NCBI RefSeq assembly: GCF_021043605.1
Contig: NZ_JAJNFB010000004.1
Coordinates: 1 to 64,000 of the forward strand
Direction: 5' to 3'
DNA from: Borreliella americana
GTDB taxonomy: Bacteria > Spirochaetota > Spirochaetia > Borreliales > Borreliaceae
DNA: 64,000 bases
In this document: in pieces, positions 17,637-20,631 of the stretch
How positions within the stretch are numbered: position 1 is the stretch's first letter
How the letters are laid out: every line of letters begins with the position of its first letter
Made by a program: the position numbers and the translations under genes
The notes under the pieces: model-generated
The model's database searches: none
Told to the model about the DNA's origin: nothing
What the model saw: the letters and a program-made list of their open reading frames with translations, nothing else

Positions 17637-19175
17637 ATGAAAATAAGCATTGCTCAAACGAAATACAGAGCTTTAGATTTTGATAAATGTATTACTGATT
17701 TTAAAATTAATTATGATGAAGCTTTGCTAAGGGGATCAGACGTTTTAGTTTTTCCTTCTACGTTTTTAGGTAATACTAAGTATGGCAAGTTTTTTGAGCT
17801 TTTTCAATATTCTAAAAATATATGTAAGTTTATTGAATTTATGAAAGAACAAGTTGATGATAGCACTTTAATTGTTTTTGGTCATAGTGTTTATAAGGTT
17901 GACAAATTTGTAGATGTTATTTCTGTTATCAGTAATCATAAAGTTGTTCTAACTGTATCACAATACAATTTGCCTGGATTTTTTAGTTATAAGGACAATT
18001 TATTTGCTGTATTAAATTTTGAGGATGATTTGTTATTTAAAGAGCTAATTCCTAAATTTGGCGAGCATTTAAAGAAAGCTCAGTACTTAATAGTACCGTC
18101 TAAGTCTTATTTTACTAAGGAAAAGAATAATCTTAGGTTAAAATTCTTTGAAAGAGTTGCTATTGAGAATAACCTGAATGTTGTTTATTCGAATTTTTAT
18201 GGAGCTGAAGATTCTGCAGTTTATGATGGGTGCAGCTTTTTTATTAATAGTTTTGGCAAGATAAAACAAGCCAAAGGATTTGAATTTGATTTTGTATCTA
18301 ATGATACATTTCAAGATTTAAAATTTGATACATGTAATGAGCTTTTTGAAAAAATTATTTTAGCAATATCTCTTGTTTTAAGAGAATATGTTTCTTTTTC
18401 GAGATTTTCTAAAGTTCATTTGGGTATATCTGGGGGTATTGATTCTGCTCTTGTTGCGTGTCTTGCATGTTTTGCTTTGGGCGCTGAGAATGTTGTTGGG
18501 ATTTCTATGCCTAGTAAATTTTCATCAGCAGATTCTATTTCTGATGCTAAAGAACTTTCTAGCAAATTAGGTTTTAAATTGATTGAAATGCCAATAAAAG
18601 ATTTATTTGAGGTAAGCAGAAAATTTTTTGAAGGATATTTTGATGTTAAAGGTGTCACTGGTGAGAATTTACAAGCTCGGTTAAGGGGGCTTTTATTAAT
18701 GTCTTATAGTAATTCTCAAAATTCTTTGCTTTTAAATACTGGCAACAAAAGCGAGATTGCAGTTGGTTATTGTACCCTTTATGGGGATACTTGTGGAGGA
18801 CTTGCTTTGATCGGAGATCTTTTTAAGACAGAGGTTTATGATCTTGTAAAGTATATTAATGCAAAATTTGACCAATGTATTATTCCTGTTAATATTATTT
18901 TAAAGGAGCCCTCAGCTGAGTTAAGGTTTGATCAAAAAGATAGTGACTATCTTCCAAAATATGAAGTTCTTGATGTTATTTTAAATAAATATTTGATTGA
19001 CAATGAATCTGTAGATTCAATTTATCTTAATTTTGAAAAAAGTATAGTTGATAAAGTTTTAAATCTTTATTTTAAAAATGAATATAAAAGAAGGCAAGGG
19101 GCTCCCATAGTTAAAGTTTCTAGAAAAACCTTTGGTTTTGAGCTTTCAACTTCTATTTTAAATAATAGAATTTAA
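17637..19175 (+). CDS. nadE: NAD+ synthetase with degenerate nitrilase (glutaminase) domain
   Basis: A 512-residue protein of the glutamine-dependent NadE type: an N-terminal nitrilase-like domain (1-215) fused to the NAD synthetase domain (about 235-500). The synthetase P-loop is intact (HLGISGGIDSALVA, about 261-274), as are NTGNKSEIAVGYCTLYGD and the LKEPSAELRFDQKDSD region near 423-437, so amidation of nicotinate adenine dinucleotide should work. In the N-terminal domain the catalytic Glu-Lys-Cys triad appears lost: VFPE reads VFPS (Ser41), the Lys before LPN is Gln109, and the ICED motif reads NFED (Phe128). The enzyme is inferred to use free ammonia only. It stands alone with its own promoter. 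Confidence 0.92.
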   Translation: MKISIAQTKYRALDFDKCITDFKINYDEALLRGSDVLVFPSTFLGNTKYGKFFELFQYSKNICKFIEFMKEQVDDSTLIVFGHSVYKVDKFVDVISVISNHKVVLTVSQYNLPGFFSYKDNLFAVLNFEDDLLFKELIPKFGEHLKKAQYLIVPSKSYFTKEKNNLRLKFFERVAIENNLNVVYSNFYGAEDSAVYDGCSFFINSFGKIKQAKGFEFDFVSNDTFQDLKFDTCNELFEKIILAISLVLREYVSFSRFSKVHLGISGGIDSALVACLACFALGAENVVGISMPSKFSSADSISDAKELSSKLGFKLIEMPIKDLFEVSRKFFEGYFDVKGVTGENLQARLRGLLLMSYSNSQNSLLLNTGNKSEIAVGYCTLYGDTCGGLALIGDLFKTEVYDLVKYINAKFDQCIIPVNIILKEPSAELRFDQKDSDYLPKYEVLDVILNKYLIDNESVDSIYLNFEKSIVDKVLNLYFKNEYKRRQGAPIVKVSRKTFGFELSTSILNNRI

Positions 19176-19480: not shown

Positions 19481-19613
19481 ATGAGATTTGTCCTAATGCT
19501 TTTACTTTCAGTTATTATTTTTTAATTTTAATGGGATTTTGGAACTTGAATCAAAGGACATTGTTTTAAATTGGGAACTGTGTTCCCTATCAGGAAAAGG
19601 AGTTTGTGTTTGA
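19481..19613 (+). pseudogene. Possible remnant of a small secreted protein gene
   Basis: An ATG at 19481 opens a signal-peptide-like stretch MRFVLMLLLSVIIF and then hits TAA. In a neighbouring frame the sequence continues as FNFNGILELESKDIVLNWEL and beyond, then ends in TGATAA. The two pieces read as one short secreted protein broken by a frameshift. Family unknown. It sits directly upstream of the inositol-monophosphatase pseudogene, so the whole stretch appears to be decaying. Confidence 0.3.
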
Positions 19614-19781
19614 TAAATTTTCTTACCTTTTTGCTATTTAATAGAATCTGTGAGATTGAAAATAAAAAAATAGAATCAATCTAAAAAAAGCAAAAAAATA
19701 TTTAATTTATCAAAGTAAAATGCTTTTGGAGATGATTTTTAAATTTTAGAATTTATTATTAATAAGAGAATCAAGATAAAA

Positions 19782-20631
19782 ATGGATTGGAGGTTTTGAA
19801 AAATTATATTTTTATTAAATGAATCGACTAGGCTTGCATTAAGTGGTTGTGATAAATTAATTTTAGATTTACAATCTGATGGGTCTATTGTAACTCGGGT
19901 TGATAAGCAAATTTAGCAATTCTTATTCAACGAAATCAAAAAGCTTGGTAATTTTGTTCTTAAAGAAGAGACAATATCTCCTTATGAAGAAGAGTATATC
20001 AAAGATGTTTTAATATCAGAGAGTACTTTTATTATTGACCCTATTTATGGAGCTTCTTCTTTTGCGACAGGTCATCCTTCATATGGAATATCGCTAGCGT
20101 ATGCTAGTGGCGGCAAAATTATTGAAGAGCTATTTCTTTTCCTTTAAGCGGAGAGTTTTTTATTACTTCTAAAGATAGTGTATCTTATGCTAAAAAACAT
20201 TGGTAGCTATCCTTTAAAAAAAGATTTTACTCAATTTATTTTTGATACTTCTGAATGTCGTAATATTAATAGTTTGTTTGCAGTTTCAAGGTCTATTATA
20301 AGGGCATTTAATTTTGATATTTCTTCTCATATTCATATTAATGGTTCTTGTGTATATTTTTTTGCCAAACTTTTATAGGTCCTTATAAGGCCTATTTTTC
20401 TTTTGTAGGGCTTTGAGATATTGCAGCGTGTTTTTAGCTATTGGTAATAAGTTGGGCGTGATTGGTGAATTTTATTGTGTCAATAAAATGACACTAGATA
20501 TAGATTCAATGTATATTTTAAAACCCAACAATTATAAAAGATGGTTCTTGAAAGATTTTTTATCCTGATGATAAATCGACAATAGACACTGTAAGAAAAG
20601 ATGCAAATAAAAAATTAATAAGCAAGATATA
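19782..20631 (+). pseudogene. Decayed inositol-monophosphatase-family gene
   Basis: Pieces of an IMPase-like protein can be followed through several frames. The first frame (from ATG 19782, with stops at 19797 and 19914) contains GSIVTRVDKQ and then FIIDPIYGASSFATGHPSYG with ISLAYASGGKIIEE after it, matching the family's metal-binding (L/I)DPIDGT..F..G.P....S motif with the second Asp as Tyr. That frame stops at 20145. Frame +2 continues with PLSGEFFITSKDSVSYAK, the first frame resumes with SRSIIRAFNF near 20286, and later fragments DIAACF and LAIGNKLGVIGEF match the C-terminal WDIAA...GG signature. At least two nonsense codons and several frameshifts rule out a working enzyme. B. burgdorferi has an annotated inositol monophosphatase at this position (BB_0524). 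Confidence 0.8.

Follow-up and report, generated by a model that had tools for sequence, protein, structure and literature searches.

The nadE gene at 17637..19175 (+) of the window (the whole 64,000-nucleotide stretch of Borreliella DNA analysed here) raises the question of whether a NAD synthetase built like the glutamine-dependent enzymes can still use glutamine and, if it cannot, where its nitrogen comes from and why the N-terminal half is kept. The open reading frame begins with ATG, is free of frameshifts and codes for a two-domain NAD synthetase of 512 aa, whose relatives at 85-91% identity belong to named Borreliella species. A Pfam search assigned residues 243-487 to PF02540 (NAD_synthase, E 1e-66), and among the NCBIfam models TIGR00552 (nadE) scored 197.7 bits, above its cut-off of 63.65. 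The model of the long NAD+ synthase, NF010588 (PRK13981), aligned over residues 1-505 with 384.5 bits, which is below its cut-off of 479. The N-terminal domain (residues 1-225, 17637..18311, +) gave no match to PF00795 (CN_hydrolase) at E<=1 and did not reach the gathering score of 23.2 bits; two relatives from Borrelia scored 13.2 and 14.0, and the intact controls 38.8 to 91.6. The nitrilase domain claimed by the earlier note is nevertheless present, as indicated by the span of the NF010588 alignment and by a comparison of the profile of the Borreliaceae domain with that of the intact set, in which hhalign recognised the glutaminase domain of long NadE with a probability of 99.8 and an E of 8.5e-30.

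The predicted structure points in the same direction. The nearest solved structures are long, glutamine-dependent NAD synthetases. The AlphaFold2 model (pLDDT 89, pTM 0.90) matched 3n05 across 480 residues with a VIA Z of 35.2, while residues 1-225 were superposed on nitrilase-superfamily amidases with Z of about 24 and rmsd of about 2.4 over 209-216 aligned residues. These residues are thus predicted to adopt a nitrilase fold, so that the protein has the layout of type F, a nitrilase-like domain fused in front of the synthetase, and is not of type N, which has no G domain at all. The C-terminal synthetase domain (residues 233-505, 18333..19151, +) is intact, in agreement with the earlier note; it retained 60 of the 68 near-invariant columns, and its ATP pyrophosphatase P-loop SGGIDS (residues 265-270, 18429..18446, +) is near-invariant in intact and triad-less NadE alike.

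What distinguishes this NadE from type F enzymes is the loss of the catalytic Glu-Lys-Cys triad. In M. tuberculosis NadE the triad consists of Glu52, Lys121 and Cys176 (PMC6946656); the catalytic Glu had earlier been given as Glu46, which is wrong. The corresponding positions are Ser41 (TCT, 17757..17759, +), Gln109 (CAA, 17961..17963, +) and Phe128 (TTT, 18018..18020, +), and MAFFT, hhalign and HMMER against PDB 5kha all placed these residues in the catalytic columns, which upholds the claim that all three glutaminase residues are gone. In the MAFFT alignment the same columns held E, K and C in every one of the 35 intact long NadE of our reference set (34 from spirochaetes and one from Bacteroidota).

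The alignments support a loss of glutaminase features that extends well beyond the three triad residues and is fixed across Borreliaceae. The main bottleneck of the tunnel in M. tuberculosis NadE is formed by the YRE loop (Tyr127-Glu132), which also touches glutamine and contains a second Glu that is essential, Glu132 (PMC6946656). A gap of about 17 residues, overlooked in the earlier note, removed this loop together with the second Glu in 35/35 Borreliaceae, and the same gap was found by HMMER against 5kha; its junction lies at about codons 115/116 (17979..17984, +). The loop columns Y, F and E were invariant in the 35 intact NadE, and in Borreliaceae the Y was replaced by F, L or V and the remainder was deleted. 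Tyr58 corresponds to T, A, I, V or other residues and Pro204 to Tyr or Cys, so that the equivalents of Y58, K121, Y127, F130, E132, C176 and P204, whose roles in M. tuberculosis are taken from PMC6946656, were all substituted or deleted. The N-terminal domain kept only 15 of its 36 near-invariant columns, against the 60 of 68 in the synthetase domain (Fisher p 1.3e-6). Two further changes were found in the C-terminal half: codon 254 (18396..18398, +) is Phe where 35/35 intact long NadE have Lys, and codons 503-504 (19143..19148, +) are Leu-Ser where all aligned intact sequences have Arg-Arg. Because the C-terminal loop is an element of the S/G interface and contacts the glutaminase domain (PMC3376133), the missing Lys254 and Arg503-Arg504 may represent interdomain contacts that were released.

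The substitutions are not peculiar to one genome. nadE was found in all 36 Borreliaceae genomes searched, with an intact frame in 34 of the 35 others, and the E-K-C set was absent from 35/35 of the intact-frame proteins, in which position 41 is S or F, position 109 is Q, E or S with two K, and position 128 is F or L. The two Lys at position 109, in one Borreliella (L020) and one Borrelia (L039), never occurred with Glu or Cys and are likely the result of chance drift from CAA or GAA to AAA. The triad positions drift across the family with no new fixed site. The dead domain as a whole is under weaker but clear constraint: its median dN/dS was 0.28 in Borreliella and 0.30 in Borrelia, compared to 0.17 and 0.21 for the synthetase domain, which is purifying selection. 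A decaying pseudogene domain was ruled out by the dN/dS of about 0.3 and by the frame kept in 34/35 of the other genomes. Residues 1-225 are a retained pseudo-glutaminase and not a decaying remnant, and the earlier proposal that the domain remains for structure fits both the purifying selection and the confident predicted fold. The one split nadE, in the Borreliella genome G021 (L087, about 570-2110), has a one-base deletion near codon 147, which may be a sequencing error instead of a real frameshift.

We suggest, with a probability of roughly 87% for the explanation as a whole, that the NadE of Borreliaceae is an ammonia-dependent NAD synthetase that carries a structural dead domain and draws on a mixed ammonia pool. 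Its ancestor would have been a glutamine-dependent two-domain enzyme, the glutaminase half of which had probably turned into a pseudo-enzyme by the time Borreliella and Borrelia diverged. The present enzyme would adenylate NaAD and complete NAD with free ammonia that enters the synthetase site. Support of folding or oligomer assembly may be the reason why the dead domain was retained. Ammonia is probably supplied by PncA, ArcA, NagB and host fluids together. We infer the use of ammonia because the synthetase domain is intact and because single-domain NadE have been shown to use ammonia (PMC3376133); it appears to be the only chemistry left to such a domain. The earlier note is thus upheld in its observation and, to the extent that sequence can tell, in its interpretation as well.

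The enzyme so described stands between known kinds of NAD synthetase. It resembles the fused type F proteins (NF010588/PRK13981; 3n05, 5kha, 4f4h) in domain order, full-length fold and synthetase motifs, and differs from them in that the triad is missing, the YRE loop is deleted, the N-terminal domain has fallen below Pfam detection and the NF010588 score lies under the cut-off. Like the NH3-dependent single-domain NadE of the Helicobacter and E. coli type (1xng, 2e18), it is expected to perform ammonia-only chemistry and shares the synthetase fold (Z of about 30), but those enzymes have no N-terminal domain, whereas Borreliella NadE retains 225 residues of dead nitrilase domain. A parallel for a long NadE without the catalytic Cys is offered by the C176A mutants of the M. 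tuberculosis enzyme (3sdb, 3sez, 3szg, 3seq), which fold and bind synthetase ligands. However, these mutants carry a single engineered change, while the Borreliaceae are naturally without the whole active site, family-wide.

Loss of the NadE glutaminase seems to have been repeated several times among spirochaetes. On the tree of the synthetase domain the Borreliaceae fell among intact Spirochaetia, and the triad was lost in three other lineages, with 4 changes in total. When the survey was extended to additional genomes of the phylum, with both branches of long NadE represented, a broken E-K-C triad was found in 24 of 107 proteins (almost all from the phylum), a count that is not a rate, for the sampling followed genome availability and low-scoring members of f3 were added on purpose. 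The tree of the 107 sequences needed 11 triad changes, at least 5 of them forced by well-supported branches, and this count is approximate in a quick tree with long branches. Most of the changes would be losses, because regain of a triad is unlikely. Every sampled member was triad-less in f3/g4 (5), f3/g5 (3, one of 1.1 Mb), f3/g8 (2), f9/g16 (2) and f44 (3). The Cys alone was lost in L071, L156 and L157, and some others have lost everything. Judging from genome sizes and groups, many of the triad-less genomes may be those of host-associated treponemes. The other spirochaete NadE in which the triad is broken, from both long-NadE branches, were L108, L112-L114, L148-L158, L070, L072-L074, L076, L071, L190 and L195; when the presence of PncA was compared, the assemblies of several triad-less genomes were apparently without plasmids. 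One could go further and propose a recurrent inactivation in spirochaetes in which the dead domain was kept for a non-catalytic job, either newly gained or retained, as an allosteric ligand site or an assembly scaffold, and NAD was tied to free ammonia derived partly from nicotinamide and not to glutamine. We hold this wider proposal to be doubtful.

A related possibility is that the domain was repurposed, such that what was once the glutamine pocket now accommodates a different ligand or a protein and regulates NAD synthesis. Purifying selection at a dN/dS of about 0.3 would agree with such a role, as would the strong conservation of residues 150-218 in Borreliaceae, including K156, S157, K163, N164, L166 and R167. 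However, part of this block is conserved in intact enzymes too and may simply reflect the fold and the interface, and the catalytic positions drift without settling on a new pattern. Regulation by a repurposed pocket is thus unlikely in our opinion, and a structural role for the dead domain is preferred.

It is still less probable, indeed very improbable, that NadE still uses glutamine with the help of a separate glutaminase docked to either of its two domains, as in the two-subunit enzymes of type C/R. A two-subunit NADS is known in Thermus thermophilus (PMC3376133), and the dead domain has been retained under selection. But the search for CN_hydrolase in the genome returned Lnt and nothing else, and PF04960 glutaminase gave no match, in an assembly of 65 contigs that is about 95% complete and in which a distant partner of this kind may have escaped notice. 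Moreover, a second nitrilase subunit would presumably be kept out by a dead domain that sits in the docking place. A non-nitrilase amidase such as GatA may be a partner of NadE in trans. The protein search recognised one NAD synthetase in the genome and a second, weaker PF02540 match; weak PF02540 matches elsewhere resemble general PP-loop enzymes.

Use of free ammonia by NadE would require a supply. The genome encodes PncA, ArcA (arginine deiminase), NagB and PncB, the first three of which release ammonia, and no match to glutamine synthetase (GlnA) or the ammonium transporter AmtB was found in it. PncA releases one ammonia for each nicotinamide that it hydrolyses, a stoichiometry of one to one. 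This would suit a scheme in which PncA is the specific and obligatory source of the ammonia, so that the amide nitrogen of nicotinamide is recycled into NAD, and PncA is present here and has been found essential in mice and ticks (PMC13398362). However, ArcA and NagB yield ammonia too, and the culture and transformation of strains that lack lp25 (and pncA) is routine (PMC11411949). Since such strains grow in culture, PncA is ruled out as the sole ammonia donor, and the obligatory scheme has very little chance of being correct. The nicotinamidase that the earlier note suggested as a source is present, and PncA would be one source among several in the mixed pool.

An alignment error, with an intact triad sitting elsewhere in the N-terminal domain, is the outcome that the earlier note named as refuting its claim, and it has a practically negligible chance: the domain is just about 23% identical to intact domains, but the three alignment methods concur, and across the 35 Borreliaceae residues 1-230 contain no Cys conserved at 80% and E216, close to the domain end, as the sole Glu conserved at that level, so that a relocated triad is excluded and the loss of the glutaminase stands.

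Among the freely accessible papers searched, we found no report of glutaminase loss in the NadE of Borreliaceae. According to PMC3376133, every fused NadE characterised earlier used glutamine, and the family would be an exception to this pattern as a whole. Judged by domain order alone, these proteins would be labelled as glutamine-hydrolysing, and the nitrogen donor given by metabolic models for the last step of NAD synthesis in the Lyme and relapsing-fever spirochaetes would be the wrong one. The spirochaete proteins may also form a natural series, from loss of the Cys only to complete loss with deletion of the loop, in which the return of an amidotransferase to ammonia could be studied. In these host-dependent bacteria, for which the search returned no glutamine synthetase, NAD synthesis would be linked to reactions that release ammonia.

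The region downstream of nadE differs between the two genera. Between nadE and the next gene of the window, 19600-20600 (+) contains no intact open reading frame but short fragments such as DPIYGASSFATGHPSYGISLAYASGG, which by eye resemble a decayed gene of the inositol-monophosphatase family. At the equivalent place in four other Borreliella, no open reading frame of at least 80 aa was found on the + strand. In four Borrelia of the relapsing-fever group (L031, L035, L037 and L039), nadE is followed by a long open reading frame from about 3035 (+), with about 490 aa contained in the stretch. This reading frame, missing at that place in Borreliella, resembles by eye a response-regulator/phosphatase protein.
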